Assembly (NCBI GenBank): GCA_015061945.1
Contig: SUVP01000003.1
Location: 62,001 to 126,000 of the forward strand
Source: Opitutales bacterium
Lineage (GTDB): Bacteria; Verrucomicrobiota; Verrucomicrobiia; Opitutales; Intestinicryptomonadaceae
Reading direction: 5' to 3'
Length of the DNA stretch: 64,000 nucleotides
A program made the translations under genes and the position numbers. The notes below the pieces were generated by a model, which searched no databases, had not been told where the DNA came from, and saw only the letters and a list, made by a program, of their open reading frames with translations. Below, one piece after another: positions 29,092 through 47,105 of this stretch. Numbering within the stretch: the stretch's first letter is position 1; each line of letters opens with the position of its first letter.

Positions 29092-30420
29092 TTATAAATT
29101 GATTTTTATACCTTTTCGCAAGTATGTAGGGATGTCTAAGTCGACACCATTTCTGATATTTGGCGGAGTATCGAGGAAGAATCCACGTTGCTCCGATAAT
29201 TCCACAAATTTAAATTCCGTTTGATTGTCGTCGGGCTTAACCTCTGGTTGCTTTTTCTTTCTGCGACCCAGCCCAAAGAAAGATTTTTTCTCCGGTTCAA
29301 CTGGAACAGGTGGAACAGAAACATCTGTCTGTTGCGGAGGTGGTGCAACATCGATTACTTGCTTTGTGTCTGCTGGCTGTTCAGGTTCTGCAGTTTTATT
29401 TACAGATTCTTCTTCGTTAGAAAAAGATGTTGGAGCTGATTCGATTTCGTTTTCTGATTCAAATTTGTCTTCGATTACTTCGGCTTGTTGGTGTTCTATA
29501 TCATTGCACAAGCCCATTGCACAAACTTCAATTTCTGTGTCGAGCGATTCATCTGTGATTGCACCGAACGCCATTTTTGCGGGCGACCCAAATTTTTGCG
29601 AAGCCAGCTCGAGAAGTCTTTGCATTTTGTTCATTTCAAACGAAGGCGAACAACGCAAGTTTAACAACATTGTTTTTGCCGAAAAATCTTTTGGTAAAAG
29701 TGGCGATTGTTGCAATTCTTCGATAGCGTCATCAACTGCATTTTCGGCATATCCACGACCAAACGATGCGTACGAGATTTTTTGTTTTGCTTGATTGTCG
29801 TCAAATAATTTTATGAACGTAGGGAAGTCTACATTGACAATTCCATTTGAAGACAACAAGCGTGCGAGCGACTGCACCATATTCACAATGTGAAGATTTG
29901 CCTTTGCGTATGCGTCGATTATCGGGAGGTTTTGCTTTGCCAAAATTACATCGTTTGGCAATGTGAACGACGCACGTGTGAATCGTGAAAGTGCGAGTTT
30001 TGCTTTTGTTGCGAGTTTTGTTTTTTCGATTCCTTCGATTGCGAGGGCAGAAACTGTAAAGCTGACAACTTCGCAATTAGAATTTTCTGTTGCGACTTTT
30101 GCGAGCATTGGTGCAATGATACTACCAGTGCCTCCGCCCAGCCCCGCTACAAGCACGACGAGTCGCGAACCATTCAAGAGTGCTTCTAACTCCGACGCTT
30201 TTTCAGATGCACCACTCTGTGCGATAGCAGTATCGCCACCAGCACCTTCGCCATTTTCAATCAAGCAAATTTGATTTTCAATTTGACATTTTTCGAGTGC
30301 TGATGCGTCGGTATCAATAGCCACGAACGATGCTTCGGGCAAGAGTGGTTTGATATCATTTAGTATCGCAATTCCCGCTCCGCCTATGCCGATTATTTTG
30401 ATGTCTGAAATTGCTATCAT
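29092..30420 (-). CDS. ftsZ: Divergent cell-division GTPase FtsZ
   Basis: 442-aa tubulin homologue that forms the Z ring. The GTP-binding region has GIGGAG (11-16) and the signature GLGGGTGS (93-100). The T7 loop reads NVDFPT (196-201): the first acid is kept (D198), but the second, needed for GTP hydrolysis in typical FtsZ (NVDFAD), is Thr201. After residue about 330 comes a long acidic/Pro-rich linker with a basic patch (GRRKKKQ), ending in a recognisable C-terminal peptide DLDIPTYLRKG for FtsA/ZipA binding. The frame is open upstream, but ATG 30420, 1 nt after the ftsA stop, fits the family. Last gene of the cluster. Confidence 0.92.
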   Translation of the reverse strand: MIAISDIKIIGIGGAGIAILNDIKPLLPEASFVAIDTDASALEKCQIENQICLIENGEGAGGDTAIAQSGASEKASELEALLNGSRLVVLVAGLGGGTGSIIAPMLAKVATENSNCEVVSFTVSALAIEGIEKTKLATKAKLALSRFTRASFTLPNDVILAKQNLPIIDAYAKANLHIVNMVQSLARLLSSNGIVNVDFPTFIKLFDDNQAKQKISYASFGRGYAENAVDDAIEELQQSPLLPKDFSAKTMLLNLRCSPSFEMNKMQRLLELASQKFGSPAKMAFGAITDESLDTEIEVCAMGLCNDIEHQQAEVIEDKFESENEIESAPTSFSNEEESVNKTAEPEQPADTKQVIDVAPPPQQTDVSVPPVPVEPEKKSFFGLGRRKKKQPEVKPDDNQTEFKFVELSEQRGFFLDTPPNIRNGVDLDIPTYLRKGIKINL

Positions 30421-30421
30421 A

Positions 30422-31612
30422 TTAGAAATTGAAAATGTTTGAGAACCAACTTGTTTTTTTGTGAGAATTTTTTTCTTCTTCCATTCTCGCATACTCGAGT
30501 AATCCGAGTGCTGTGGAGTACTCCTGATAGCGTACTCCCGGTTGAAGTGCACTGCAGAATTTTCCTTTTGAGCAAGGCACTTCAAGTATAGCTTCGGCGA
30601 GTTCGCAAATGCCGTCGAGGTTTGATGTTCCGCCAGTCAAGATAACTTCTTTAAGCTCGCATTCTTCTGGAATATATTTTTCGCAATCTTCACGCAAGAG
30701 CGTGAAAAGTTCTTCGAGTCTTGCCCGTATAACTTGATTTATTGCTTCTAACGAAATTTTTTTATCGCCAATTTGTTTGTCGCCTTGATTCCAGAATTTT
30801 TGCGATTTTTCATCTTCTGTTATTATCGCTTTCCCGAGTTGAATTTTTATACGTTCGGCATTTTTGCGATGTAAATGGAGACCGAGCGAAAGGTCGTTTG
30901 TGATATGGTCTCCGCCAACTGGAATTACGCCTGCGAACACAGGTTTGCCGTGTGCAAAGTATGCAAAGTCGCTCGTGCCACATCCGATATCAACAACAAG
31001 CACACCGTCTTCTTTTTGTTGCTTGTTTGCAACAGTGTAGCCCGACGCAATGCCCGAAAATACGAGATATTCAACCTCGAGACCAAAACTTTGTACGACA
31101 TGTAGTGCGTCCATAATTTTGTCGCTATCGCCATGCAGAAGCCAATATTCAACATCTATATGTTCGGCACGTTTGCCGATAGGGTCGGCACAATATTTGC
31201 CGTCGAGATAATATCCGCTACAAATTTTTTGGATAAACGTGCGACCTTCTGGAAGTGATTTCCCCCTTGCGTCTTCGATTGCACGTTGCAAGTCTTCTTT
31301 TTTTACGAGACCATCGGCACTTGATACGTTTGCAGAGCCTGTATTTCTAAAACCTTTTATGTGAGTGCCACTGATTCCCAAGCAGACAGATTCAATTGAT
31401 GTCGAGCTCGATTTTTCAGCCATAACGATTGCCGCTTGAGCTTGTGTTGCTGCTTTTACGACATCGCAAATATCTGCTTTCTTTACGCCAGTAGTTGTGG
31501 CTTGTCCACTCCCAACGATATTGAGCATTTTGTTATCAATGATTTCACCGAGAAAAACCTGCATTTTCCCAGTTCCAATTTCGAGTGCCGCTATTGTTTT
31601 ACTTTTGCTCAT
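30422..31612 (-). CDS. ftsA: Cell-division protein FtsA
   Basis: 396-aa actin-like protein tethering FtsZ to the membrane. ATPase motifs: ALEIGTGKMQVFLGE (phosphate 1), VVDIGCGTSDFAYF (phosphate 2) and VILTGGTSNLDGI (adenosine). The C terminus KKTSWFSNIFNF is an amphipathic membrane-targeting helix as in E. coli FtsA. It overlaps ftsQ by 4 nt (ATGA) and is followed by ftsZ after 1 nt, the usual order. Confidence 0.95.
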   Translation of the reverse strand: MSKSKTIAALEIGTGKMQVFLGEIIDNKMLNIVGSGQATTTGVKKADICDVVKAATQAQAAIVMAEKSSSTSIESVCLGISGTHIKGFRNTGSANVSSADGLVKKEDLQRAIEDARGKSLPEGRTFIQKICSGYYLDGKYCADPIGKRAEHIDVEYWLLHGDSDKIMDALHVVQSFGLEVEYLVFSGIASGYTVANKQQKEDGVLVVDIGCGTSDFAYFAHGKPVFAGVIPVGGDHITNDLSLGLHLHRKNAERIKIQLGKAIITEDEKSQKFWNQGDKQIGDKKISLEAINQVIRARLEELFTLLREDCEKYIPEECELKEVILTGGTSNLDGICELAEAILEVPCSKGKFCSALQPGVRYQEYSTALGLLEYARMEEEKNSHKKTSWFSNIFNF

Positions 31613-32496
31613 TTTGTTTGTGGTTTGGCAATTTTCACGATTGACGAATCTTCGTAAGTGAGGTCGATTTTCTCAACGTTGTCAATCGGGTTATCTTTCA
31701 TATATTTCAAGATGTACTCAAGCCTATCGATTTGACGCGTATATTGATTTGTTTTGAAAATATATTTCATACCACTTTTCGTGCTGACTGTGATAATCGG
31801 CAAAGTAATACTATCTATTTGCGAAACGTCGATTGAAAGCCACGAGTCGAACTCTTCGGGCAGACGGATTTTCACAGCGTTTACAAATTCAACGAGTTTA
31901 TGTATACTTTTGTATCTCGCTGGGACATTGCCGTCGAAAACAATTTTTATACCTTCTATATATTTGAGCGTATCAATCTCATCTTCATCGATTGAAATCG
32001 GTGAAAAGAAAGATCCTTCGCTCGACAAAAGATAGATGCGATTCTGGTAATCAACTTTCAGCAAAACTTTTGCGAATGGCTTGTGTTCAGAAATTGTGAT
32101 CCTCAAAATATCGGGATAAATTCTCTCTACTCGAGATGTCTTGATTTGCGAGAGCATTTCGAGCATTTGTTTTACTTCAAAAATATTGATGTCGGCAAGT
32201 TTTGTTCCACTTTTGATTTTCAAATAATCGTTCAGCCATGCACCTGATATTTTGCCGTCGGTTTTAAGTTCTATTCTACTGATTGGTTTGCTATCGCCTG
32301 CAAAAATGTCATCGAAATAAATGTTTTGGTAGGCATAGTAGGCGAGGTATCCTAATCCGCAAACAATTGCTACAAGTGCGATTCTTTTTGTCCACGTCCA
32401 TATAGAACGGAAACGTGCACGCCACGACAATGGCTTGGGCTTTCCTGTTAAGTCTCGCCAATCGCTTGATGTAGGTTTTGTTTTTTTCTTCGCCAT
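31609..32496 (-). CDS. ftsQ: Cell-division protein FtsQ/DivIB
   Basis: 295 aa. A basic cytoplasmic N terminus (MAKKKTKPTSSDWRD) precedes one transmembrane segment (RIALVAIVCGLGYLAYYAYQ, about 38-57), then a POTRA-like region (ISRIELKTDGKISGAWLNDYLKIKSG) and a beta domain. It belongs to the divisome bridging early and late proteins with FtsL/FtsB. Sequence conservation is low, so the call leans on topology and position between ddl and ftsA. It shares its start base with the ddl stop (TAATG). Confidence 0.88.
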   Translation of the reverse strand: MAKKKTKPTSSDWRDLTGKPKPLSWRARFRSIWTWTKRIALVAIVCGLGYLAYYAYQNIYFDDIFAGDSKPISRIELKTDGKISGAWLNDYLKIKSGTKLADINIFEVKQMLEMLSQIKTSRVERIYPDILRITISEHKPFAKVLLKVDYQNRIYLLSSEGSFFSPISIDEDEIDTLKYIEGIKIVFDGNVPARYKSIHKLVEFVNAVKIRLPEEFDSWLSIDVSQIDSITLPIITVSTKSGMKYIFKTNQYTRQIDRLEYILKYMKDNPIDNVEKIDLTYEDSSIVKIAKPQTK

Positions 32497-33413
32497 TATT
32501 TAGAGTGTCGTGCAATCGCACCTTCGAGCAGTTTTTCGCACAAGGATTTGAAATCGTATCCGACACAACTTGCACTTTTAGGGAGTAAGCTTGTTGGGGT
32601 CATTCCTGGGAGAGTGTTAATTTCGAGGATAACAAACTTCAAATTTTCTTCGTCGGTCATAATGAAATCGACACGAGAGAAGTCTCGGCAACCACAAACT
32701 TTGAATGCTTTTTCGGCAGATGTACGCATTGCGTCTTCTGCTTGTTTTGAAATCTTTGCAGGGAATTCATATTTTGTAGAACCGGCAGTGTACTTGCGTT
32801 TGAAATCGTAAACTCCGCCTTCTGGCATAATTTCTACAATACCACACGCTTTCCCATAAATCACGCCGATTGAAAATTCTCGACCTTTACAAAATTCTTC
32901 AGCCATCCACTCGCCATCTTCGATTTGCGACAAGCCACCTTCGGCATCTTGAATTGTGCGTGCGACAATCAGCCCGACGCTACTTCCTTTGTCGGCTGGC
33001 TTAATGATTGAGCCGTTCGGGAAAAGTTCAAAAAGTGTTTGTGCCGACGGCTTATTTTTTGCGTTAAATTCAAGCGAGCGTGGTACTGGTAACGATGCAA
33101 ATTTCAAAAGCGATTTTGTTGCGGGCTTAATCATACATGCTCTGCTTGCGAGCGAATCGCAACCAGCGTATGAGAACCCAGCTTCATCGAGTTCAGCTTG
33201 CAAAGTGCCGTCTTCGCCGTAATCGCCGTGCATTGCGGGGTATATGATTGTATCTTGCGGATTGAGATTTTCTGGAAGTTTGTTTTCGTCGAGTCTGATT
33301 AGTTGAGCATCGAACGAGTCTTTTAGTGCGTCAAAAACATTTTGTCCGCTTACGATTGACACGTCGCGTTCGGGCGAAATACCTCCGCATAAAACTGCTA
33401 CTTTTGGTTTCAT
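32496..33413 (-). CDS. ddl: D-alanine--D-alanine ligase
   Basis: 305-aa ATP-grasp ligase making D-Ala-D-Ala for the peptidoglycan stem. Motifs: VAVLCGGISPERDVSI, YPAMHGDYGEDGTLQAEL, IIKPADKGSSVGLIV, EFSIGVI and the C-terminal ILEINTLPGMTPTSLLPKSA. Length is normal. It overlaps murC by 4 nt. No murB lies between murC and ddl, unlike in many dcw clusters. Confidence 0.96.
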   Translation of the reverse strand: MKPKVAVLCGGISPERDVSIVSGQNVFDALKDSFDAQLIRLDENKLPENLNPQDTIIYPAMHGDYGEDGTLQAELDEAGFSYAGCDSLASRACMIKPATKSLLKFASLPVPRSLEFNAKNKPSAQTLFELFPNGSIIKPADKGSSVGLIVARTIQDAEGGLSQIEDGEWMAEEFCKGREFSIGVIYGKACGIVEIMPEGGVYDFKRKYTAGSTKYEFPAKISKQAEDAMRTSAEKAFKVCGCRDFSRVDFIMTDEENLKFVILEINTLPGMTPTSLLPKSASCVGYDFKSLCEKLLEGAIARHSK

Positions 33414-34648
33414 TTTAGTGTACTAAAAAATTCTTTTGCTGGAAAATAAAAATCACCAGCACCAACGATTGCTACGTTGATTTTCTGCGTGTTTTTATCA
33501 TTTAACTTGTCTGTTATAATTTTGAAGAAATCTTCAGGTTTCGCAAGCATAATACGCATAGATTTTGCGGAAATTACATCACTTTCTCCGAGTGGATCGA
33601 ATGGCTCGCTTGCTGGATAAACGGGCAGAAGTAAAACGTGAGAATTTGATGTTGCGTGAGAATCGAGAATCTTTGCAAAGTCGTCTGCAAATTTGCGAGT
33701 TCGCGTGTAGCGATGCGGTTGAAAAAGTATTATTTTTTCGCCGTCAAATTTTTCAGAAAACCAATTTAAGAACGACATCACTTCGTTTGGATGATGTGCA
33801 TAATCGGCTATTGCTCGCAATTTTGGAGTATCGCAAATTATTTCTTGGCGACGCATTAGTCCACGAAAATCATCGAAAACGTTGTTATTTAATTTTTCTC
33901 CAAACGTTTCTTCGTATGCGACTTTCGCCATGGCACGATTTATCTGCATAAAATCACCTTCGGCTTTTACTGCTCGTGATGGCGTTTTGGAGCGTTGTGC
34001 GATGCGTGCAAGTATCGCATCGTTTTCTGGGTATATCACAATTTTTTTCGTTCGAGCAAAGAGCCGTTCAAACATTTCTTCGAGCTTTTGCGTGTCGGCA
34101 TATGTGTCGGTATGGTCGAGGTCAGCGTTGAGTGCAACGCAAACTTCGGGCGAAAAATTTTCGATAGTACCGTCGCTTTCGTCTATTTCAGAAATGAGTG
34201 GTTTGCCGTCTTGACAATATTTGTGCATCGGGAAATTTGACGGAATTGCACCAACTAAATATCCGCTATCTTTTTTGTTTTTTATTATGCAATGTGCCAA
34301 AAGTGCACTGACTGTACTTTTGCCGTGGCTACCGACTATTGCAGTCAATTTGCGAGTCGCACAAATTTTGCTCCAGCATTCACCACGTCGAGATATATTA
34401 TTGCAACCTGTTTCTTTTTCGATTTCACCGATGCGTCGTTTCAGTGCTGTGCTGATTATTATTTTTCTGTCGGTTTCGATTTTATGTAATGGGCTAAATA
34501 CGATTCCGCAATTTTCGAGCTTTGTTTTTAGTTGAATATTTGGGCAATCGTCAAAGCCTTGCACATCTGCTCCACCGTCTTTTAAAAAGGAAGCCAAAGG
34601 TGCCATACCCATTCCGCAGACACCTAACATATAATATTTTTCCGACAT
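33410..34648 (-). CDS. murC: UDP-N-acetylmuramate--L-alanine ligase
   Basis: 412-aa Mur ligase adding the first stem residue. Shown by GVCGMGMAPLASFLKDGGADVQGFD (Rossmann domain), IVGSHGKSTVSALLAH (ATP loop; the family more often has GTHGKTT), SEIDESDGT, ALNADLDHTD and ADYAHHPNEV plus FQPHRYTRT, the last two diagnostic of MurC. It is somewhat shorter than the usual 450-480 aa. Its start overlaps the murG stop by one base. Confidence 0.93.
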   Translation of the reverse strand: MSEKYYMLGVCGMGMAPLASFLKDGGADVQGFDDCPNIQLKTKLENCGIVFSPLHKIETDRKIIISTALKRRIGEIEKETGCNNISRRGECWSKICATRKLTAIVGSHGKSTVSALLAHCIIKNKKDSGYLVGAIPSNFPMHKYCQDGKPLISEIDESDGTIENFSPEVCVALNADLDHTDTYADTQKLEEMFERLFARTKKIVIYPENDAILARIAQRSKTPSRAVKAEGDFMQINRAMAKVAYEETFGEKLNNNVFDDFRGLMRRQEIICDTPKLRAIADYAHHPNEVMSFLNWFSEKFDGEKIILFQPHRYTRTRKFADDFAKILDSHATSNSHVLLLPVYPASEPFDPLGESDVISAKSMRIMLAKPEDFFKIITDKLNDKNTQKINVAIVGAGDFYFPAKEFFSTLK

Positions 34649-35745
34649 TATTCTATTTCTCCGCTCGCAATTGCAGAAAGGTCGGCAACTATTCTCGATG
34701 TATCGTTTTGGTCGTCAACACGACTAAGATTTTTTATCATTCTCGTTCTCAAATTTGTATTTGAAAACAATTCTTTTACTTCATCGAAAAGTGTAGATAA
34801 TTTAGTTTGTTCAACAACGACACAAGCACCTTGTCTTTCAAAACATTTTGCATTTTCAAGTTGATGGTTATCGGCTGCGTAAGGGTAGGGGATTAGTGCC
34901 GACGGAATTCTGCAACGTGCCAATTCGGCGATTGTACCAGCTCCAGCTCTCGCTACTATCACTTGCGAAGCCGACATTGCCGATGCCATATTATCGCAAA
35001 ATTCGAGGAATTTTATTTTGCGAATTTTTCCGTCGGGCGACATTTTTTCTCTGTCCTGATATTTACCTTTTCCTTGTCCGCAAACGCAGAGAACGTCGAT
35101 ATTTTGTTCTGCTAATTTTTCAAAATTATCATTCGCCCAATCATTGAGAACTAACGCACCCTGACTCCCTCCGAGGACGACTAAAAGATTTGCCGATTCA
35201 TCAAAACCAAAAAATTCCTTCGATTCTTTTTCGGGCAATTTTTTGATTTCACTTCTTATCGGATAGCCCGAGTACTTAACTTGCCCTGATTTTCTGCGTG
35301 GGATTTTTACGCCAAATGGAACGTAGATTCGCTTGGCAAAACGTCCGAGTAGACGAGTCGCCTTGCCGGCTTTTCGGTTTGCTTCGTGCAATACAATCGG
35401 GATTCCAAGCCATATCGATGCGAGCGAAAATCCGAGCGAATTAAATCCACCAAAGCTTATCACAACATCTACTTTTTCTTTTTTGAGAGTTTTTATTCCA
35501 AACGCAATAGAGCGTCGCAACTCTGCCAAAAATCTCAAAAATTTAATTGGATTTTTCGACAGTGCCATCCCTGGAGCTTTGATAACATTCAAATCTGTAT
35601 ACTTGCCGATAAGGCGTGAGTCCACATCTTTACGGCTGATTACAAAACTTGCTTTGTGTCCGGCTTCAATAAGAGATTGTCCGACTGCTAACCCTGGTGC
35701 AAGGTGTCCACCAGTTCCTCCGCATAAAATGATAAAATTACTCAT
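34648..35745 (-). CDS. murG: UDP-GlcNAc--lipid I GlcNAc transferase MurG
   Basis: 365-aa GT28 enzyme completing lipid II on the inner membrane face. The N-terminal glycine-rich GGTGGHLAPGLAVGQ, FGGFNSLGFSLA with HEANRKAGKATRLL, the second glycine loop VVLGGSQGALVLN and the acceptor-domain segment VIVARAGAGTIAELARCRIPSALIPYPYAADNHQ are all family marks. It overlaps ftsW by 4 nt and murC by 1. Confidence 0.96.
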   Translation of the reverse strand: MSNFIILCGGTGGHLAPGLAVGQSLIEAGHKASFVISRKDVDSRLIGKYTDLNVIKAPGMALSKNPIKFLRFLAELRRSIAFGIKTLKKEKVDVVISFGGFNSLGFSLASIWLGIPIVLHEANRKAGKATRLLGRFAKRIYVPFGVKIPRRKSGQVKYSGYPIRSEIKKLPEKESKEFFGFDESANLLVVLGGSQGALVLNDWANDNFEKLAEQNIDVLCVCGQGKGKYQDREKMSPDGKIRKIKFLEFCDNMASAMSASQVIVARAGAGTIAELARCRIPSALIPYPYAADNHQLENAKCFERQGACVVVEQTKLSTLFDEVKELFSNTNLRTRMIKNLSRVDDQNDTSRIVADLSAIASGEIE

Positions 35746-36860
35746 AATTCACCTGCTTTTATTTTCTTTGGGGTATTCCATGAGCGGATGCAATTTACAA
35801 TTAACCCAGTGAATGCAAACATCATCACAAGGTTTGATCCGCCGTAGCTTATAAATGGGAGTGATATACCTTTTGTTGGCATCAAGCCAGTAACAACGCA
35901 CATATTTGACAACGCTTGAACTACAATCATAAGTAGTGCGCCTATCGCAACAGAAAATTCATAGAGGTTTGGTGCTTTTTTCAAATTCCAAATTCCGACC
36001 AAAAGGATAATCATAAAAAGTAGGGCGACTAACATTGTGCAAATCATCCCCATTTCTTCGCCGACGATTGCAAATACAAAGTCGGTATGTGCTTCGGGCA
36101 AAAAAGAAAGTTGTTGTCTGCCTTGACCGATTCCAACGCCAGTAATTTGTCCGGAGCCGAATGCGAGAATACCTTGATAAAGCTGATATGAACCTTCTGT
36201 TTTTGTCCCTTCGATATCGAGAAAACTCAATACACGTTTGAGTCGGACAGGGTCGTTATATACCATTATGCAGAAGCCGATAAGGGCAGGTGTTGCCAAT
36301 GCTAATATCTGATAAATCTTTGCTCCGGCTAAGAAAATTAGCGACATCCCGATTGCTCCGATTACCGCAGTCGTACCAAAGTCTGGCTCTAAAATAATCG
36401 GCACACAAAATACTCCGACGATTGCAAGTGGTTTTATCAAACCATCGATGAATGAGCTCATCTTGCGTTGATTGTCGTACAGATAACTCGAAAGCAAAAT
36501 TACAAATGAGAATTTTGCGATATCACTTGGTTGTATTGCAAAAACTTTAAGATTTATCCAGCGGTGCGAACCGTTTACTTCTGGAAAGAAAAACACCAAG
36601 CACAATAAAATAAGAGATATAATTGCGAATGGAATAGATATAGATTTCAGAAATTTTAAGTCGATAAAACTTGTAAAAAGCCCAGCGAAAATTGCGATAA
36701 CTAACCACATCGCTTGTTTGCGGACAATTCCGTACGGGTCTGTCGCACCGGCTCCTGCACTCGTTAAGATGAGTAGACCGAGTGCAGTCAACACCAAAAC
36801 GGGTAGTACGATTGCTACCCATGCACTAATTACAGGCGATTTACTTTTTTTTAAATCCAT
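35742..36860 (-). CDS. ftsW: Lipid II polymerase / division protein FtsW
   Basis: 372-aa SEDS-family polytopic membrane protein with about ten transmembrane helices, the septal glycosyltransferase partner of FtsI. Diagnostic: SSYLYDNQRKM, IILEPDFGTTAVIGAIGMSLIFLAGAK, LAFGSGQITGVGIGQGRQQLSFLPEAHTDFVFAIVGEE-type loop and the C-terminal GISLPFISYGGSNLVMMF. It begins 15 nt after the LysM gene and overlaps murG. Confidence 0.96.
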   Translation of the reverse strand: MDLKKSKSPVISAWVAIVLPVLVLTALGLLILTSAGAGATDPYGIVRKQAMWLVIAIFAGLFTSFIDLKFLKSISIPFAIISLILLCLVFFFPEVNGSHRWINLKVFAIQPSDIAKFSFVILLSSYLYDNQRKMSSFIDGLIKPLAIVGVFCVPIILEPDFGTTAVIGAIGMSLIFLAGAKIYQILALATPALIGFCIMVYNDPVRLKRVLSFLDIEGTKTEGSYQLYQGILAFGSGQITGVGIGQGRQQLSFLPEAHTDFVFAIVGEEMGMICTMLVALLFMIILLVGIWNLKKAPNLYEFSVAIGALLMIVVQALSNMCVVTGLMPTKGISLPFISYGGSNLVMMFAFTGLIVNCIRSWNTPKKIKAGEL

Positions 36861-36875
36861 TCCCCCGCTCCCGAA

Positions 36876-38051
36876 TTAGAGTTCAATTACGGGAGGGTTT
36901 GTGTTTTGTACAGGAGCAACAGGCGAAACTGTTTGTACAGGTTCAGCTGTTGTTGTAGTTGGTGCAGAAGTTGGTGTTGGTTCTGGTGTAACTACAACTG
37001 GAGGAGTACTTGGTTTTTGAGGCTCTTGTGTAGTTGGTTTTTCAACAACAACTGGTTTTGGCTCAACAGGTGCTGGCTTTGCTGTTTCTTGCTTTACTGC
37101 TTTTCTTGAAACGATTGTAAGCTTTTGACCTATTCTCAATTTGCGAGCATCTTTTATGGAATTCTTTTCCATAATTGCCTTGACTGATGTCCCATATTTA
37201 AGAGCGATTGCACCGAGTGTTTCACCACTTTTTACAACGTGCAAAACTTCACCTTCTGCGAGTTTTACTTCGGGTTTTGCTTCAGCTGTTGCTGTTGCAG
37301 TTGTGCTTGTTGCGTTCTTTGAAACATTCAACTTTTGACCAATTCTGATATTGTGATTTTTAAGATTATTGATTGCCATCAACTGCTTCACCGACATCTT
37401 GTATTTGCGAGCAATCTTTCCGAGATAATCGCCTTTCTTGACGATATAAGTTGTCAACTCTTCTGTCTCAACATTTGTCGATTCTGTTTTTGGTGCAGTT
37501 GGAACAGCTGGTACAACTTCAGCAGTTGGTTCTGGTGCAGGCAATGCTATTTCTTGACCAACGCGAATTACGCTTGAGCGATCCATTCCGTTAATTTCAA
37601 GAATCTTGTTGAGTGATACTTTGTTTTTCTTTGCAATCTTTGCGAGTGAATCGCCTTTTTGCACTTTATATGTAATCAAATTAGCGTCTGTTGTTTTTGG
37701 TTTTACAACAGGTGGTTCGCTTGGCTTTACAACTTCAGTTGTTTCAGTTTTCTTGTCGTCCGAAACAATTTCTTCTTGTTTACCGCCACCCATTTGCCAC
37801 TGTGGGCGAGTCGGAGGAACGCGAAGTGCAGAACTTCCTTCTGGAGGTAGCACTTCTTTTTTTGCTTCTTCTTTTTTAGCTTCCTCTATCTGAGCTTTTT
37901 CTTCGTTAGAAGGAACTATTTCTTCTACCGTCGATTTTGCTGACGTAGGCTTTGTTTCTGGTTCGGAACTGCATCCTGCTTGGAAGAGAAGCACGCCGAT
38001 AACCAATGCGTGAAATGCGATTATTGTACTGATTGCAACTGATTTTTTCAT
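36876..38051 (-). CDS. Membrane-anchored triple-LysM protein inside the dcw cluster
   Basis: 391 aa. An N-terminal hydrophobic segment ends in QAGC at residue 27, a lipobox-like site with an unusual -3 residue, so lipoprotein anchoring is plausible but unproven. Three LysM peptidoglycan-binding repeats follow at about 126-170, 200-244 and 269-314 (each YxVxxGDxLxxIAxK...IRxGQxL), joined by Pro/Thr/Ala-rich linkers; the tail is low-complexity Pro/Thr. There is no catalytic domain. Placement between murD and ftsW suggests a role at the growing wall or septum. I know no characterised equivalent. Confidence 0.88.
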   Translation of the reverse strand: MKKSVAISTIIAFHALVIGVLLFQAGCSSEPETKPTSAKSTVEEIVPSNEEKAQIEEAKKEEAKKEVLPPEGSSALRVPPTRPQWQMGGGKQEEIVSDDKKTETTEVVKPSEPPVVKPKTTDANLITYKVQKGDSLAKIAKKNKVSLNKILEINGMDRSSVIRVGQEIALPAPEPTAEVVPAVPTAPKTESTNVETEELTTYIVKKGDYLGKIARKYKMSVKQLMAINNLKNHNIRIGQKLNVSKNATSTTATATAEAKPEVKLAEGEVLHVVKSGETLGAIALKYGTSVKAIMEKNSIKDARKLRIGQKLTIVSRKAVKQETAKPAPVEPKPVVVEKPTTQEPQKPSTPPVVVTPEPTPTSAPTTTTAEPVQTVSPVAPVQNTNPPVIEL

Positions 38052-38085
38052 ATTAGAATACCTCTTATTTTTATATTTATTTTTA

Positions 38086-39384
38086 CTATTTTTTTAAATT
38101 CTTCAAACACAAAACTTCATTTTTGAAAGATTTTCCACGTTCCGAGTAGCTCGAGAACATTCCGAAGCTCGAAAACGCTGGGCTGAACAGTACTGCCGAC
38201 CCTTTTTTTGACATAGACATCGCTTTTTCGACTGCGTCTTTCATAGAATCGCAAACGCAAACTCCGTCAGATAATTTGCCGTCGAGCATACATTTTAATT
38301 TTTCTGCAGTTTGACCTATTAAGATAGCACTCTTTGCCGATTGACATATTGCGTCGACAAGCTCTGTTAAATCACAATTTTTATCTTTCCCGCCACCAAT
38401 CCAAATTAGATGATTCTCATCTTTTAATTCTTGCAATGCACCGATTGTAGCGTGTGCATTTGTCGCTTTTGAATCGTTGTAGAAGCGAACCTGATTTACT
38501 TCTATCGGCGTTGAAAATCTGAATGCGGGCAAATCGAATGTTTTTGCACTTTCTTCAAACTTATCTTTTGTAATTCCAAATTCTTTGCCGACTTCAATCG
38601 CCATATTGAAATTACGCGATTGTATTGAATTATCGAATGGCGTCGGTGCAGGGACTGGATTATTTTCATCCAAAACTATTACATTTTCAGAAATTGTAAT
38701 ATTTTGTGATTTTGCAAAATCTTGTACTGAACTGCCGATAAATACTTTGTCTTTTGTAGCTTTTAATAAATTGTTTTTAGCTTGGAAATACTCTTGCATA
38801 TCCTTGTGCCAATCGAGATGGTCTGGAGCAAAGTTTGTCCAAAGAAGTATATCGGGCTTTAAAAATTTTAGATTAGAAGTTTGGAAACTGCTCAATTCAT
38901 AAACTGCAATTTTGTTTTTATCGCTTCCAAATTCTGCACAATATTGACTTAATGGAAAGCCGATGTTGCCTGTGGATATTGCATCGAACCCACATTCATT
39001 GAGAACTTTAGTTATAAATTTTGTGAGTGTAGTTTTTCCGTTTGTCCCAGTGATTGCGATAATTTTTCCTCTCCACGCAAGTGCGGAAAAATCGGCTTCG
39101 CAGACGGCGCTTGCTCCGTTTTCTTCGGCGAGAGTTATCCATTTGTGGTCTGGACGGAATGCGGGAGAATATACAACTAATGCGTGATTTTTCGCAGTGT
39201 GTTCGTCAAACGGTTGCAATAATTCTCCTGCAATTTCTCCAGTTTTTTTAGAGTTAGCTTCGGCGTAAAAAACCGACTCAATTCCAAGTGAATCGAGCAG
39301 TTTTTTGGTTGCAGTACCACTTGCACCTGTTCCAAAAATTGCAACAGGTTTATCGGCACAAAGCTCTCTGATTTTTTCTATCAT
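38086..39384 (-). CDS. murD: UDP-N-acetylmuramoylalanine--D-glutamate ligase
   Basis: 432-aa Mur ligase adding D-Glu. Marks: VAIFGTGASGTATKKLLDSLG opening, AITGTNGKTTLTKFI (ATP loop), STGNIGFPLSQY, ELSSFQ, TNFAPDHLDWH, FRFSTPIEVNQVRFYNDSKATNAHAT and WIGGGKDK. These NDSKATN and GGKDK segments separate MurD from other Mur ligases. Its start base overlaps the mraY stop; 34 nt separate it from the LysM gene. Confidence 0.95.
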   Translation of the reverse strand: MIEKIRELCADKPVAIFGTGASGTATKKLLDSLGIESVFYAEANSKKTGEIAGELLQPFDEHTAKNHALVVYSPAFRPDHKWITLAEENGASAVCEADFSALAWRGKIIAITGTNGKTTLTKFITKVLNECGFDAISTGNIGFPLSQYCAEFGSDKNKIAVYELSSFQTSNLKFLKPDILLWTNFAPDHLDWHKDMQEYFQAKNNLLKATKDKVFIGSSVQDFAKSQNITISENVIVLDENNPVPAPTPFDNSIQSRNFNMAIEVGKEFGITKDKFEESAKTFDLPAFRFSTPIEVNQVRFYNDSKATNAHATIGALQELKDENHLIWIGGGKDKNCDLTELVDAICQSAKSAILIGQTAEKLKCMLDGKLSDGVCVCDSMKDAVEKAMSMSKKGSAVLFSPAFSSFGMFSSYSERGKSFKNEVLCLKNLKK

Positions 39385-40484
39385 TATCTTATCTTGAGTG
39401 TAGCAAGCCCTGCCAACGCAAATATCAACGAGAGAATCCAGAATCTAATTACGACACGTGTTTCTTTCCATCCCTTTAATTCAAAGTGATGGTGGATTGG
39501 CGACATTCTGAAAATTCTTTTCTTTGTGAGTTTATACGAGCCCACTTGCATAATCACCGACATTGCTTCCATCACAAAAATTCCACCGACAAGCACAAGG
39601 GTAATTGGTTGTTGTACCATAAATGCGATTACACCGATGAGTCCGCCGAGTGCGAGCGATCCGGTATCGCCCATAAATACGTCTGCTGGATGAGCGTTGT
39701 ACCAAAGGAACGATAGTGCCGCTCCCAACAATGCACAACATACGACAGTTAATTCTCCCGAAGCAGGGATGTATCTGATAAAAAGATATTCAGCTGTAAT
39801 CATATTGCCCGCAACATACGAGAATACTGCGTATGCGAGTGCGACCGATACTGTACATCCAATAGCGAGTCCATCCACACCATCAGTCAAATTGAGGGCA
39901 TTGCTCGAACCGCCAATCACAAAGAAAATGAATATTGCACCAAACCAAAATGGCATACTTTCGATAAGCGGATATTTCAAGAATGGAATCCAAAGTTCAC
40001 GCATCAATGTGCCGTATTCTTTTGAAAAATACAAAAGAGCGAGTGTGATTATCGATACTGAAATTTGTACTGATAATTTGATTTTACCCGATACTCCTTT
40101 GCTATTCTTTTTGACGATTTTTGTGTAGTCGTCAGCAAAGCCGAGTGCTGTTAGGGCAGAGTATACAAAGAGTGCTACAAACACCAAAAGATTTAGGCGT
40201 GCGAACAAAAGCGAACTTATCATTACCGACGCAAATATAATAATACCGCCCATTGTAGGAGTCCCTTTTTTGCTGTCGTGCAAATCGGCAAGTGCGCCAA
40301 CTTCTTCTTTTGTTCTGAAACTTTGCCCAAATTTTATTCTATGTAAAACTCTTATTATGTATGGAGCAATGATAATTCCAAGTATGAATGAAAATGCCAT
40401 TGCACTCGCACATCTGAATGACAGATAGCGAAACAAACGCAATGGACCAAACCAATCTTCTAAATTTGCAAGTTCAAATAACAT
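39384..40484 (-). CDS. mraY: Phospho-MurNAc-pentapeptide translocase
   Basis: 366-aa membrane enzyme with about ten helices that makes lipid I from UDP-MurNAc-pentapeptide and undecaprenyl phosphate. Conserved segments: KKGTPTMGGIIIF, LGFADDYTKI (catalytic Asp pair), NALNLTDGVDGLA, FLWYNAHPADVFMGDTGSLALGG and RIFRMSPIHHHFELKGW. Start and the murF stop share one base (TAATG). Confidence 0.97.
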   Translation of the reverse strand: MLFELANLEDWFGPLRLFRYLSFRCASAMAFSFILGIIIAPYIIRVLHRIKFGQSFRTKEEVGALADLHDSKKGTPTMGGIIIFASVMISSLLFARLNLLVFVALFVYSALTALGFADDYTKIVKKNSKGVSGKIKLSVQISVSIITLALLYFSKEYGTLMRELWIPFLKYPLIESMPFWFGAIFIFFVIGGSSNALNLTDGVDGLAIGCTVSVALAYAVFSYVAGNMITAEYLFIRYIPASGELTVVCCALLGAALSFLWYNAHPADVFMGDTGSLALGGLIGVIAFMVQQPITLVLVGGIFVMEAMSVIMQVGSYKLTKKRIFRMSPIHHHFELKGWKETRVVIRFWILSLIFALAGLATLKIR

Positions 40485-42091
40485 TAAATTTTCTCTCTTT
40501 CGTCTTCGTCGTCTTCTTCTTCAAAATTTTCATCATCGAAGTCATCCTCATAATCTTCGTCGAAATCTTCGTCATCTTCGGTGTCGTCGAAATCTTCGGA
40601 GTCAGAAGTGTCTTCAATGTCTTCTTCTATTGTTTGTTCTTCGATAGAATCGTCATCCGATTCCACTTGTTCATCATCTTCTTGTTCTGGTTGTGCGGGT
40701 GAATTTAATTTTTCCAGAACAGCACTTGGGAGCGATTTTTCAAGCTCGCAAACTCGGCTACCTTTGACGAAAATGAATCCATCAAGCTGGGCAACTTTTT
40801 CAGATGCTTCTTCGGATGTTTTGTAGACAAAAATATTATTTTCGTTCCAACCATTTTCGAGTAGTCCAGTTTTGTAAACTTCGGCAAAAGCTCCGACGAG
40901 AACTGCGATATCGTTTTCGCGTGGTTGAATATGCGAGCCTACATCTTTGTGATGTGGGTGTGATGCGAGCCCTAATTCTGCCATTGTTCCCAAAACGTAT
41001 GCACGCTTTTCTGCATTTTCAGAAATTTTTGTGAAAAGTGCAAGAGCGTCTCTCATCGAAGTCGGCGAGGCATTGTAGCAGTCGATATAATATTTTGCCG
41101 ACTCCATTTCTACAATACTTCCACGCATTGGCAATGGTGCAAACGTTTCGAGAATCGACGCAATACGTTCTTCTTTTGCACCCAACATCAATGCACCTGC
41201 AATCGCCAAAAGGGCGTTTTCAATCATTCCAGTTGTCATTCGTGGAATTTCAAAATAGAATTCGTCGCCACCTTCGACACACATATCGATTGAAATCGTA
41301 TTTGCGTCGACATCGCCGAGTGCGTATCTAAACACGAGGTCGGCTTTGTATTCAGGAGCGTCTGATGATGCGACAATCGCCTTGCGACAAGTTAATTCAT
41401 CAAATGCTTTCCAGCTGAGAAGATTGTGGTGAATTAAGCACCAACCACCTTCGGCAACACACGAAGCAAGAACTGATTTTTCTTTCGCAACATTTCCAAT
41501 TTGCTCAAATCTTTCGAGGTGAGCAAGCCCGACATTTGTGATTATTGCGATATCGGGTTCAATCATTTCTGCAAGCTCACGCATTTGGTTTGGAGCACCC
41601 ACGCCAGCCTCGACGATTGCGAGCTGATTTTGTCGCAAATCCATTCTTGTCAGCGTGAGGGGAACGCCGAGTTCGTTGTTGAAATTTTTTTCAGTGATGA
41701 GTGGGTTTTTCCATTCAGTCAATTTTGCGAGCATTTCCTTTGTGGAGGTTTTGCCACACGAACCTGTTATTCCGACAACGGGACTATCGAAACGTAATCT
41801 ATGCAGTTTTGCAACTATCTGAAACGCTTTGACAGAATCTTTCACAACAAGCACTGGAACTTCTACATCAAGCTCTCGTTCGGCGATGATTGCAGTTGCA
41901 CCATTTGCGACAGCGTCGCTTGCAAAATCGTGTCCGTCTCGCGTTGCTTTAATTGCGATAAATGCAAAATCTTTTTCGACATTTCTGCTATCGATTGTGA
42001 AGCCTCGTATTTCTGGTCGTTTTTCTGGATTGAGATTTTTCCATTCTCCGCCAGTCCAGTTTTGTAAATCGTCTATTTTAAAAAATGGCAT
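40484..42091 (-). CDS. murF: UDP-MurNAc-tripeptide--D-Ala-D-Ala ligase with acidic tail
   Basis: 535-aa Mur ligase completing the pentapeptide. Residues 1-460 are ordinary MurF: FTIDSRNVEKDFAFIAIKATRDGHDF, GITGSCGKTSTKEML, FNNELGVPLTLTRM, EAGVGAPNQM, INYN-type YIDCYNASPTSM and VLGTMAELG. Residues about 466-535 are an appended tail made almost only of Asp and Glu with a few Ser/Tyr/Phe (for example DEDFDEDYEDDFDDENFEEE). The tail is in frame up to the mraY start, so it is real coding sequence rather than read-through into another gene. Confidence 0.94.
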   Translation of the reverse strand: MPFFKIDDLQNWTGGEWKNLNPEKRPEIRGFTIDSRNVEKDFAFIAIKATRDGHDFASDAVANGATAIIAERELDVEVPVLVVKDSVKAFQIVAKLHRLRFDSPVVGITGSCGKTSTKEMLAKLTEWKNPLITEKNFNNELGVPLTLTRMDLRQNQLAIVEAGVGAPNQMRELAEMIEPDIAIITNVGLAHLERFEQIGNVAKEKSVLASCVAEGGWCLIHHNLLSWKAFDELTCRKAIVASSDAPEYKADLVFRYALGDVDANTISIDMCVEGGDEFYFEIPRMTTGMIENALLAIAGALMLGAKEERIASILETFAPLPMRGSIVEMESAKYYIDCYNASPTSMRDALALFTKISENAEKRAYVLGTMAELGLASHPHHKDVGSHIQPRENDIAVLVGAFAEVYKTGLLENGWNENNIFVYKTSEEASEKVAQLDGFIFVKGSRVCELEKSLPSAVLEKLNSPAQPEQEDDEQVESDDDSIEEQTIEEDIEDTSDSEDFDDTEDDEDFDEDYEDDFDDENFEEEDDEDEREKI

Positions 42092-42106
42092 AATTTTTCT
42101 TTTGTT

Positions 42107-43684
42107 TTATAGGAGACCTTTGAGGGTTAAAAGTTCTTCGGCTACTCGCTTATCGTCGAATGGGATAATTGTGTCGCCAAGCTCTTGGAAAGTTTCATGA
42201 CCTTTGCCTGCAATGAGAATACAATCGCCGTCAGAAGCGGCATCTATTGCGAGGTTTATCGCTCTGCGTCTATCTTCGATGAATGCAATTCTTGATGAAT
42301 CAACAACGCCAGCTTTCATATCTTCAAAGATTGTCGAGATTTCTTCGCCACGAGGATTGTCCGATGTTGCCCATGCAATGTCGGCATATTCTTGGACAAC
42401 TTTTGTCATAATCGGACGCTTTGTTCTATCACGTTTCCCACCGCAACCAAAGACAACAAGCAACTTGCCTTTTACAACTTTACGCAACATCGAAAGACCA
42501 TTTTTTAGAGCATCGTCTGTGTGAGCGTAATCGATGAAAATATCGAATTTTGCAGGGCTTTGGACTTTTTGCATTCTTCCAGGGATACCTCTGAATTTTC
42601 CGAGAATTTCCACAGCCCGCAAAATATTGCGACCCGACGCATATATCATCGCAAGCGACGCAAGAGCATTTGAAATATTGTAATGACCTGGCATATTGAT
42701 TTTCACTTGCGTTTCGCCTTCTGGATAGACGAGTGTAAAAGTTGAGTTTTGCGGACGCATCACAATATTTTTTGCACTGATTGTTGCGTCTTGGGCATCT
42801 ATACCAAACGAGACAAGCTTTGTTTCGGGCAAAAGTCTTTCGGCAATTTTACGTCCGTAATTGTCATCAAAATTTATAACGGCACATTTGGGAGCTTTGC
42901 CGAGTGCACCAGTGAACATCGACGATTTTACTTCAAAGTATGAATCCATCGTCTTGTGATAATCGAGGTGATCTTGTGTGAGATTCAAGAAACACGCACA
43001 ATCTACTGCGATAGACTTAACACGTTTTTGTTCGATTGCGTGCGAGCTCATTTCGATTGCAGTTGCCTTGCATCCGGCATATCGCATTTGATTGAACATT
43101 GCGTGGAGTTCTAAAGCTTCGGGAGTAGTACGGCTTGCGGGCAGACAGCGTCCGCCTAAATCGTAATGAATTGTTCCAATCAAGCCACACTTTACATCGA
43201 GTTTATTGAGCATTTCTTGGAGCATCCACGAGACACTTGTCTTGCCGTTTGTGCCTGTAATACCGAAGACTTCAAGGAGTCCGTCATCGTTGCCATAAAA
43301 ACTTTTTGCACCTTTTGCCGATGCTTCAGCGATGTTCTCTACTTGAATCCATGTAGCTGGAAAAAATTTTGGAGATGGCTTTTCGGATACGACAACAACA
43401 GCACCACGGTGTGCAGCTTCTTCGACAAAATCGTTGCCATCGCAGTGGAGTCCTTTAACGGCGAAGAACGCAGTGTTGGGAGCGACACGTCGACTGTCTG
43501 CTATGAGCATTTTTACTTCGACATTTTTGTCTCCAGTAATTTTTATTGCACCGACTGCTTTTGCGAGGTCGTTTGCTGTGTAAGGTGCAATACCACCATC
43601 TTGTTGTGCGAATGAAAGAGCACCAAACCTACTCTTTGCTCCGCACAAGGCTATCAAACTATTTAAATTGGAAAATCCTATCAT
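42107..43684 (-). CDS. murE: UDP-MurNAc-tripeptide synthetase (mDAP-adding)
   Basis: 525-aa Mur ligase adding the third stem residue. Marks: DSRRVAPNTAFFAVKGLHCDGNDF, GITGTNGKTSVSWML, TTPEALELHAMF, EMSSHAIEQKR, LTQDHLDYH and DYAHTDDALKNGL. The specificity motif DNPR occurs in WATSDNPRGEE, the signature for meso-diaminopimelate, implying mDAP-type peptidoglycan. It starts 3 nt after the ftsI stop. Confidence 0.96.
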   Translation of the reverse strand: MIGFSNLNSLIALCGAKSRFGALSFAQQDGGIAPYTANDLAKAVGAIKITGDKNVEVKMLIADSRRVAPNTAFFAVKGLHCDGNDFVEEAAHRGAVVVVSEKPSPKFFPATWIQVENIAEASAKGAKSFYGNDDGLLEVFGITGTNGKTSVSWMLQEMLNKLDVKCGLIGTIHYDLGGRCLPASRTTPEALELHAMFNQMRYAGCKATAIEMSSHAIEQKRVKSIAVDCACFLNLTQDHLDYHKTMDSYFEVKSSMFTGALGKAPKCAVINFDDNYGRKIAERLLPETKLVSFGIDAQDATISAKNIVMRPQNSTFTLVYPEGETQVKINMPGHYNISNALASLAMIYASGRNILRAVEILGKFRGIPGRMQKVQSPAKFDIFIDYAHTDDALKNGLSMLRKVVKGKLLVVFGCGGKRDRTKRPIMTKVVQEYADIAWATSDNPRGEEISTIFEDMKAGVVDSSRIAFIEDRRRAINLAIDAASDGDCILIAGKGHETFQELGDTIIPFDDKRVAEELLTLKGLL

Positions 43685-43687
43685 AAC

Positions 43688-45694
43688 TTATCTCCATGCG
43701 ACTTTCTTTTCGTAATTCTCATCGGTTTGAATACCGAGATAACTTGCCGCTTCTTTTGCTACATTTCTGAATGACGGAGCTGCTACAACACCCCCGTAGG
43801 CGATTCCACGCATCTTTGCAGAATCAACAACCACTGTGATAACTAATCGTGGACGTTGGGCAGGGAAGAACCCCGAGAATGATGCAACGTGGTCTCGGCT
43901 ACTATATACTCCGTTGATGATTTTTTGTGTAGTTCCCGTCTTTCCTGCGACTTTAAATCCTTCGAGAGCTGCTCTTCGAGCTGTACCAGTTTTGCTGACA
44001 ACTTCGGTTAGCATTTCGCTCATCAAATATGCAATTTTTGGCGAGATTACACGACGCACCGCACGAGGTGGATAGCTGACAATAGTCTGTGAATTGTTGT
44101 CGAAAACTTTTTTGACAAGTTGCGGTTGCATATAAATTCCTTGATTGGCTATGACACTCATTGCACAGTGAACTTGTAGTGGTGTTGCTGCAACTGCGTG
44201 TCCCATCGGCAGACGTGTAATTGTCAAACCGTCCCAATCTTTTACTTTATGTAGCGTTCCCGCAATTTCTCCTGAAAGCCCGATATTTGTCTTTTCTCCG
44301 AAGCCATAGAGATGTGCGTAGTTGTAAAGTTTTCTTTCTCCGAGTAAAATCCCAAGTTGTGCCGAGCCTTTATTTGAACTCTTTTTTGTAATGTCGCGTA
44401 CCGAAAGTTTACCCATTTTATGTGCTTCTTTAGGCAGACGCAAAGTTTTTCCACGATATGTAATTGTTGGTGAGTCGCAATCGAACACGTCGTCTGGACC
44501 AACAAGCGATTCATTCAATGCGGCAGAAATTGAGACGATTTTAAAAGTTGAGCCAGGTTCGTATTGGTCGCAAATTGCTCGGTTTCTCAAATTGTCGGGA
44601 TCATATTTATTGTAGTTATTTGGATCGTAATTTGGGTAGCTTGCCATTGCCAAAATATACCCACTACTCGGATCGCTGACTATTATGGTAGCACTTTTGG
44701 GATTATATTTCTTTACGATTTCTTGAACTTCTCTTTGTGCGATTTCTTGAATGATAGAGTCGATAGTCGTTTCGATATTCATACCATCTTCAGCTGGAAC
44801 TTCACGAGAACGGAAGTGTTCAAGCTCTCTGCGTTTGCCGTCTCGTTCAGTTTCAATCCAGCCGTCTTGCCCACTCAAATAGTAGTTGAATTGCTTTTCA
44901 ATTCCTTGTTCGGCATTGAATTCTTTGTTGACAAAACCGACAACGTGCGATGCCAACTTGCCCGAAGGATACACACGGATATATTTGCGTTCGCCACGGA
45001 AACCTTTTATCTTTAAAGCTCTAATTTGTTCGTACGTTGCGTCGTCAAGGTTTTCCATAACTTTCTTCCAACGTGGTGAAAACGACACAAAGTTTTTCTC
45101 GATTTCCGACTTCTCGATTTTTATGATTTTCGAGATTTCCGAAAATGCCTTTGGCTTTAGCTTTACTTGTTCAGCCCTGCTTTTTACGACAATGTTATTA
45201 TTTGGCTTTGTAGCACATTTGCGAATGAGTTCGTCGAAAGTCATATCGAGATTTATACCGATAACTCTCAAGCGACGTTGTTGTGCTTTCGTCAGACGCG
45301 ACTTTATTTCCGCAATGCGAACAGCATCGCTATATGGCGAGCAAATTTTCAACAAATCTTGATATGGCATTTTTAGAATATCCGCGAGCTTGTGGAGCTT
45401 GACGACCCCCTTTTCGTCAAACTCCACTCGCTCTGGATCGACTCCAAGCGTTATTACAGGACGGCTTGTTGCCAATAGATTATGCTTGGAATCTACTATA
45501 TTCCCACGTTTTGCGGGTACACATTCACGGAGCTTTCTCGCTTTATCTGTTGCCGCAATACTCTGTTCGCTTCGTACGACATGCAGATAATATAGGCGAG
45601 CAAAAATTGCACAAAATACAGCACAAAGTAAGATTGTTAATGTTGCTAATCTTCCCTTATATATAAATATAGCTGTTTTTGTTTTTTTACGCAT
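43688..45694 (-). CDS. ftsI: Septal penicillin-binding protein FtsI/PBP3
   Basis: 668-aa class B PBP that crosslinks septal peptidoglycan. One N-terminal membrane anchor (about 16-37), then RGNIVDSKHNLLA at the head of the pedestal domain, and a transpeptidase domain with S382-T-F-K385, S439-S-N441 and K584-T-G. The region between about residues 110 and 210 is longer than in E. coli FtsI. No PASTA domain follows. It overlaps ftsL by one base and starts with a Lys/Arg-rich stretch. Confidence 0.95.
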   Translation of the reverse strand: MRKKTKTAIFIYKGRLATLTILLCAVFCAIFARLYYLHVVRSEQSIAATDKARKLRECVPAKRGNIVDSKHNLLATSRPVITLGVDPERVEFDEKGVVKLHKLADILKMPYQDLLKICSPYSDAVRIAEIKSRLTKAQQRRLRVIGINLDMTFDELIRKCATKPNNNIVVKSRAEQVKLKPKAFSEISKIIKIEKSEIEKNFVSFSPRWKKVMENLDDATYEQIRALKIKGFRGERKYIRVYPSGKLASHVVGFVNKEFNAEQGIEKQFNYYLSGQDGWIETERDGKRRELEHFRSREVPAEDGMNIETTIDSIIQEIAQREVQEIVKKYNPKSATIIVSDPSSGYILAMASYPNYDPNNYNKYDPDNLRNRAICDQYEPGSTFKIVSISAALNESLVGPDDVFDCDSPTITYRGKTLRLPKEAHKMGKLSVRDITKKSSNKGSAQLGILLGERKLYNYAHLYGFGEKTNIGLSGEIAGTLHKVKDWDGLTITRLPMGHAVAATPLQVHCAMSVIANQGIYMQPQLVKKVFDNNSQTIVSYPPRAVRRVISPKIAYLMSEMLTEVVSKTGTARRAALEGFKVAGKTGTTQKIINGVYSSRDHVASFSGFFPAQRPRLVITVVVDSAKMRGIAYGGVVAAPSFRNVAKEAASYLGIQTDENYEKKVAWR

Positions 45695-46062
45695 TATTGT
45701 CTAACTGCACCTTTCTTTGTTGGAGCTTTGAATGAAACAAATCCTTTGTTGCGTTTTGAAAAATCGATTCTACCGCCGTCGTAATTTTCATATCCCCATA
45801 CGACTGCTGTTATTACTGGACGTATCAAACGTGTGCTTGCACGACGTGTTAAAAGTGCAGGATTTTTTTGTTCAGCAATCTTTACTGCAAGCTCTGCATT
45901 GTCTCGTTCGAGTTGATTAATTTGTTTCTCGATTAGCACTATGCGACGCCCAATTTCTCGGCTTTCTTGGCGTTCAGCAGATATTGCAAAAAAACCAGTA
46001 CCGACAACTATCAGCAAAAGTAAAAGTGGTGTTATAAGAAGTATGTTTTCTTTTCTTTTCAT
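45694..46062 (-). CDS. ftsL: FtsL-like septum-formation protein
   Basis: A 122-aa bitopic protein: short basic N terminus, one transmembrane helix (about 7-27), then a coiled coil (IGRRIVLIEKQINQLERDNAELAVKIAEQ). FtsL sequences are poorly conserved, so the call rests on this topology and on the position between rsmH and ftsI, where ftsL always lies in dcw clusters. The Lys-rich C-terminal tail is longer than usual. Confidence 0.82.
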   Translation of the reverse strand: MKRKENILLITPLLLLLIVVGTGFFAISAERQESREIGRRIVLIEKQINQLERDNAELAVKIAEQKNPALLTRRASTRLIRPVITAVVWGYENYDGGRIDFSKRNKGFVSFKAPTKKGAVRQ

Positions 46063-46065
46063 AAA

Positions 46066-47010: not shown

Positions 47011-47105
47011 TTGTAGTATCTATTTCCTTGTAAGAGAAAGATTCTTTTGCGGTCTGCATTGAGAGTGCAGTGTTATGTAAGATTGCATTCATTAGAAAAA
47101 TTGAG

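Follow-up and report, generated by a model that had tools for sequence, protein, structure and literature searches.

The window, by which we mean the whole 64,000-nt stretch of Opitutales DNA that was analysed, carries ftsZ as the last gene of a dcw cluster, with the following features:

29092..30420, minus strand: ftsZ, the sole FtsZ/tubulin gene returned by searches of the genome (ORF, profile searches, PDB fold match)
29095..29190, minus strand: C-terminal block of FtsZ, QRGFFLDTPPNIRNGVDLDIPTYLRKGIKINL, residues 411-442, a peptide of the FtsA-binding type with an order-wide extension (order alignment)
30422..31612, minus strand: ftsA, directly upstream of ftsZ (profile searches)
31609..32496, minus strand: ftsQ, with a POTRA domain (profile search)
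32496..47573, minus strand: remaining dcw cluster, comprising ddl, a Mur ligase in the murC place, murG, ftsW, a LysM protein, murD, mraY, murF, murE, ftsI, a small ORF in the ftsL place, mraW and mraZ (profile searches)

The cluster follows the order mraZ, mraW, ftsI, murE, murF, mraY, murD, LysM protein, ftsW, murG, Mur ligase (murC place), ddl, ftsQ, ftsA and ftsZ, with a single base between the ftsA stop codon and the ftsZ start. The initial annotation called it complete; it is nearly so, with no murB assigned within the cluster by profile search and a 122-aa ORF in the ftsL place that matches no family. Within the cluster, murD and ftsW are separated by the gene for the LysM-domain protein (36876-38051, minus strand), and a similar LysM gene occupies the same place in the order-mate G024. 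The Mur ligase in the murC place (33410-34648, minus strand) is short, at 412 aa, and matches Mur ligase families weakly; the gene in this place in the order-mate G051 encodes 725 aa. The sole Rfam match in the window is a tRNA gene at 60-131 on the plus strand.

The ftsZ product, read from an ATG start codon, is 442 aa long. It matches the Tubulin/FtsZ GTPase domain PF00091 at 67.5 bits, above the curated cut-off of 33, and the FtsZ C-terminal domain PF12327 at 24.8 bits against a cut-off of 27, with residues 220-301 aligning to nearly the whole of the latter domain and the fold model spanning the same region. The NCBI FtsZ equivalog TIGR00065 scores 146.8 bits, under its cut-off of 295.2. 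Since 281 of 288 genomes in the phylum contain a match to TIGR00065 and only 23 of the 288 reach the cut-off, this threshold is unfit for the phylum as a whole and does not mark a biological defining feature. Sequence matches of the protein in the PDB are FtsZ in every case, and an AlphaFold2 model built from 40 aligned order sequences (mean pLDDT 82.3, core mostly above 90, linker low) has FtsZ structures as its top Foldseek matches in the PDB, with TM-scores up to 0.90 by target length. On the basis of gene place, fold and C-terminal peptide, the protein is FtsZ despite the TIGR00065 shortfall. In the 2.52-Mb genome, which is 97% complete, PF00091 gave one match, ftsZ itself, and searches with the order FtsZ alignment and TIGR00065 otherwise returned only fragments with E values of at least 0.003 over the nucleotide-binding start; no second FtsZ/tubulin gene was found with these three queries, in agreement with the initial view that this is the only ftsZ.

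Alignment to E. coli FtsZ (from NC_000913.3, our reference for residue equivalence) places the following elements within the gene:

29818..29835, minus strand: T7 synergy loop NVDFPT, residues 196-201, in which D198 is E. coli D209 and is kept (alignment)
29818..29820, minus strand: Thr201 codon, in the place of E. coli Asp212 and S. aureus Asp213 (alignment)
30022..30024, minus strand: Lys133, aligned with E. coli Arg142 and S. aureus Arg143, whose role is described in excerpts of PMC8936486 (alignment)
30118..30138, minus strand: tubulin signature GGGTGSI, residues 95-101 (sequence and alignment)
30232..30240, minus strand: T3 loop G61-G62-D63, with an acid at the place of E. coli Asn73 (alignment)
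30301..30303, minus strand: Ser40, aligned with E. coli Gln47 and with S. aureus Gln48, which coordinates potassium according to excerpts of PMC8936486 (alignment)

E. coli N207, D209 and D212 thus correspond to N196, D198 and T201, and the loop departs from the two-acid NxDxxD motif, as first read from the sequence. The signature GGGTGSI was also read correctly and taken as unusual. Its serine is ordinary, because the FtsZ of V. spinosum reads GGGTGSG in the excerpted text of PMC1845146, and only the final Ile in place of Gly is peculiar to the window's genus. In S. aureus FtsZ, six residues have been described as key to the subunit interface, namely D46, Q48, R143, N208, D210 and D213, where D210 swings to position the attacking water and D213 stays in place and shapes its surroundings; the Q48A and R143K mutants each have more stable filaments and a GTPase reduced roughly sixfold, and D210N and D213N abolish assembly (excerpts of PMC8936486). 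The window protein keeps three of the six (D38, N196 and D198) and reads S40, K133 and T201 at the others, so that the initial annotation had the Thr201 change and missed two further active-site changes. All six residues are present in 26 of 28 rows from other phyla. Among rows without a gap at any of the six sites (three gapped rows were dropped), between two and five are kept in 11 genus rows and three in 3 family rows, and exactly five are kept in 24/52 order rows. The signature, the T3 loop, E129 and N156-D157 are retained in the window protein.

The absence of the second T7 acid had been put forward as a trait of this gene, and the alignment instead shows an order-wide loss. We aligned the T7 region of 133 FtsZ rows including the window: 12 from the genus, 4 from the family, 52 from the order, 21 from the rest of the class and 44 from the rest of the phylum. 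One genus row is cut off before the loop; in the 11 that can be read, position 209 is always D and position 212 is T (4), S (4), A (2) or I (1), never an acid. The four family-mates likewise have D at 209, with V (2), S (1) or A (1) at 212. Among the 52 order-mates, position 209 reads D in 47, E in 3 and N in 2, an acid in 50 rows altogether; position 212 is D in 3 and non-acidic in the other 49 (T 26, A 9, S 6, H 5, G 1, Q 1, I 1). The rest of the class shows the mirror image, with the 209 acid lost in 21/21 rows (G 18, T 2, A 1) and position 212 acidic in 21/21 (D 19, E 2); in these rows (L099-L116 and others) Asn207 is often lost alongside Asp209, and an extra Asp at 211 is frequent. In the remaining 44 rows of the phylum, position 209 is D in 37 and another residue in 7, and position 212 is D in 31, E in 3 and another residue in 10, with single-acid loops in scattered families (209-only in 10/44, 212-only in 7/44). 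Both acids are present in all 28 rows from other phyla. Of the 281 phylum genomes with a match, the analysis covered 87 new ones, made up of 27 of the 30 best loci (three were dropped as repeated genomes) and 60 picked manually among the matches listed; families whose FtsZ scores lowest fall outside this sample, so the phylum counts lean towards conserved proteins.

The 80 named loci concur with the pattern in the unnamed rows, some of whose genomes they may duplicate; the clear repeats L168, L169 and L212 were left out. The 212 acid is absent from the named Opitutaceae bacteria, Lacunisphaera, Candidatus Didemnitutus mandela, Candidatus Synoicihabitans palmerolidicus, IMCC26134 (whose FtsZ reads NLDFATL) and Opitutus sp., the 209 acid is absent from the named Chthoniobacterales and Spartobacteria, and both acids are found in one Pedosphaera row and one Verrucomicrobiales row. 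Exceptions within the order are few. D stands at 212 in three of the 52 order rows, of which G041 and G026 have an acid at 209 as well and G043, a fragment on a very long branch, has lost it; the named order row L203 has D at both positions, and both acids are absent from order row G047 and named row L229. On this alignment, the loss of Asp212 is a property of the order and not of the window gene.

Could the missing acid be an artefact, whether a sequencing error, a wrong frame or a substitute for a canonical second FtsZ elsewhere? All-N stretches do occur in the assemblies of some relatives, and claims of absence need corresponding care. Against this, the loss of Asp212 is common to independent genomes and the 97% complete genome holds one FtsZ gene. 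A sequencing error at Thr201 is unlikely because all 11 genus rows that cover the stretch also lack an acid there, and the clade pattern rules out chance as the source of the absence. We regard an artefact as scarcely credible.

In a tree of 103 FtsZ rows built with the T7 columns excluded, Opitutales form one clade of 34 rows (SH-aLRT 99), of which 30 have only the 209 acid, two have both, one has only the 212 acid and one has neither. Fifteen rows from the rest of the class form a clade (support 98) in which all have only the 212 acid, and a third clade of 7 rows, including the Pedosphaera row, has mixed T7 states. These sequences are most simply explained by two old losses, of Asp212 at the root of Opitutales and of Asp209 at the root of the other branch, which makes the Asp212 loss old and order-wide and the loss in related orders its mirror image. 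The number of losses elsewhere is uncertain because inner branches are often weak (41/100 drawn open) and FtsZ evolves very fast in several families. Rows with neither acid number 2/179 against 25 expected under independence, a contrast inflated by kinship. A tree-based paired test of the acid losses was not significant, with a median p of 0.5 for 208 rows and of 1 for 103 rows and too few independent pairs, and a rule that at least one acid must stay is thus not established. On viral contigs, 8 stretches matched a pattern, and a relative is encoded by none of them.

We considered whether another residue could do the work of Asp212, leaving hydrolysis near normal. The initial annotation had raised the possibility of a compensating acid at the interface; a column scan of the alignment for order-specific acids gave no clear candidate, and none of the positions that it returned belongs to the nucleotide or T7 loops. 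D63, E298 or a water held by the threonine could each be imagined in this role. D63 occupies the place of E. coli Asn73, and the counterpart loop of S. aureus helps hold the attacking water (excerpts of PMC8936486). An acid at this T3 position is found in most Verrucomicrobiota rows; however, because it is common across the phylum, including rows with both T7 acids, and also occurs in 9/28 rows from other phyla, it is not specific to the T7 loss and did not arise with it. E298 (E. coli Arg307) is the clearest order-specific acid kept in the window. An acid stands there in 83% of the rows of the order against 0% in other groups, and the residue is E in the window and 8/11 genus rows, but it is not part of the nucleotide or T7 loops. 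Position 212 also varies freely between T, A, S, H, V, G, Q and I, unlike what one specific new chemistry would suggest. Such compensation therefore seems unlikely to us, if conceivable; given the order-specific acids, a change elsewhere in FtsZ that restores activity is possible.

The C-terminal FtsA-binding peptide of the window protein, DLDIPTYLRKGIKI, is conserved across the order alignment and has a mean pairwise identity of 0.68 within the genus, against 0.29-0.37 for core regions, which bears out the initial description of a good C-terminal peptide. With FtsA as the yardstick for evolutionary rate (62/68 rows had both genes, some FtsA parts being incomplete), FtsZ is better conserved than FtsA in family f14, with median identities of 0.77 and 0.60 and a difference ratio of 0.63 over 190 pairs. 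The window's genus shows the reverse, with 0.34 for the FtsZ core and 0.54 for FtsA and a median difference ratio of 1.46 over 55 pairs. This fast drift of the core could reflect partial loss of function, and would fit an FtsZ that is fading, kept mostly as an FtsA-bound scaffold while other machinery takes over division, on the way to the FtsZ-less state of Planctomycetota and Chlamydiota. The reading frame is nevertheless open in 12/12 genus rows as far as the contigs reach, and rough estimates suggest purifying selection on ftsZ (dN 0.30 and dS 2.07 for the genus pair G004/G008, dN 0.064 and dS 2.61 for G014/G016, where dS is saturated and only the direction counts). The window protein also retains the signature, N156-D157 and D198, and FtsZ is reported as essential in the relative V. 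spinosum (excerpts of PMC12283558).

Some relatives go further than the window genome. In family f4 (G021 and G047; loci L044 and L045), the sole FtsZ found has broken T2, T4, T6 and T7 loops, for example SCAGGFAGGFMT where GMGGGTGTGAAP is expected, together with an intact C-terminal peptide, MDVPTYLRRGLRIKT. The named row L229 resembles this protein, which is a candidate pseudo-GTPase. G051, an order-mate with a reduced genome (1.0 Mb, 92% complete), has a cluster at L262:2795-11309 that reads murG, murC, ddl and ftsQ and then continues with a glyceraldehyde-3-phosphate dehydrogenase (GAPDH) gene, with no N in the dcw stretch. Profile searches of this 92% complete genome, from which a contig or an all-N stretch elsewhere may be missing, found neither FtsZ nor FtsA, and penicillin-binding proteins, MurG and MreB are retained. 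Three order-mates of about 0.9 Mb, G024, G042 and G046, matched neither FtsZ nor, genuinely, FtsA, absences limited by contig ends and possible all-N stretches, and have MurG and penicillin-binding proteins. Two genus-mates, G001 and G010, without matches to ftsZ, ftsA, murG, penicillin-binding proteins or MreB, came up as possibly wall-less and were rejected: all-N DNA fills 2/8 and 5/5 of their sampled stretches, respectively, which makes the absences meaningless, and the weak additional hit that other genomes give in the MreB search, DnaK-like by reading, was itself missing from G010. Both the f4 proteins and G051 would be expected if FtsZ were fading; for the window gene we consider this improbable.

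We favour, as reasonably likely, a genuine, vertically inherited and functional Opitutales FtsZ with a single-acid, slow GTPase active site, as the sequences suggest. GTP would still be bound through the retained signature, T3 loop, E129 and N156-D157, and filaments would form and be anchored through FtsA. At the interface between subunits, hydrolysis would depend on D198 alone, the counterpart of the water-placing D210 of S. aureus, and S40 and K133 may slow it further. Slow hydrolysis would in turn give slow filament turnover, and the ring would work less by rapid treadmilling than as a long-lasting scaffold for making the septal wall. A different filament turnover, as first proposed, is hence the most likely consequence, and Opitutales probably divide with slow-turning FtsZ filaments.

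Laboratory mutants of the same acid show what such a protein can do. The initial statement that its loss blocks GTPase activity was too strong: E. coli D212A is reported to retain 7% GTPase (excerpts of PMC8142252), D212G is about tenfold lower in one assay and below 1% in another, forming static rings when targeted to membranes (excerpts of PMC7320174), and D212G is reported as functional in E. coli division (excerpts of PMC4383033). E. coli D212N forms stable filaments (PMC12754632). FtsZ(D212A) together with FtsA gives extra septa that complete, wild-type FtsZ being present as well, and division by a ring with a D212-type protein is, by this analogy, already on record (excerpts of PMC4383033). 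B. subtilis D213A beside the wild type forms thick, slowly changing rings and constriction continues (excerpts of PMC8079713). Two results set limits on the parallel. Because S. aureus D213N abolishes assembly, Thr at 212 could, in principle, likewise disrupt filaments if the interface has not adapted to it (excerpts of PMC8936486), and because reduced treadmilling impairs Z-ring condensation in B. subtilis, a slow ring must differ in other ways (excerpts of PMC8079713). GTPase and treadmilling drop strongly in the mutants; unlike these, the window FtsZ is natural, the only copy and inherited order-wide, and its interface had time to adjust.

The window protein resembles canonical FtsZ from E. 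coli, S. aureus and B. subtilis in its fold, its place after ftsA, the GGGTG motif, the Asp209 and Glu138 equivalents and the C-terminal peptide, and differs in having the Asp212, Gln47 and Arg142 equivalents replaced and in scoring half of the TIGR00065 cut-off. Chthoniobacterales and Spartobacteria likewise have one T7 acid, but they lost Asp209 (to G, T or A), often with Asn207, and kept Asp212. In microtubules, beta-tubulin lacks the catalytic acid Glu254 of alpha-tubulin, which leaves one interface non-hydrolysing, whereas in this single-gene FtsZ the acid would be missing at every interface. Verrucomicrobial FtsZ is described as canonical or divergent in excerpts of PMC1845146 and PMC12283558, and we found no account of T7-acid loss in Verrucomicrobiota in the literature searched, most subscription journals being outside its scope. 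FtsZ itself is well known; what appears to be new is a natural, clade-wide single-acid form and its mirror-image loss in the sister branch.

We speculate that across the class the Z ring no longer relies on fast GTP hydrolysis, with Opitutales shedding Asp212 and the other sampled orders Asp209, and that some Opitutales went on to an FtsA-tethered scaffold with broken loops and to giving up ftsA and ftsZ outright while keeping wall genes. This wider scenario is doubtful as it stands, but if true it would offer naturally occurring stages between a treadmilling FtsZ and division without FtsZ, in the superphylum where Planctomycetota and Chlamydiota lost FtsZ. The two T7 acids are regarded as conserved, and FtsZ dynamics are taken to require both. 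An order with one acid in its sole FtsZ, and sister orders without the other, constitute a natural test of how far the Z ring needs GTP hydrolysis and of the stepwise giving-up of FtsZ, and named Opitutales with complete genomes, such as IMCC26134, make the question testable.
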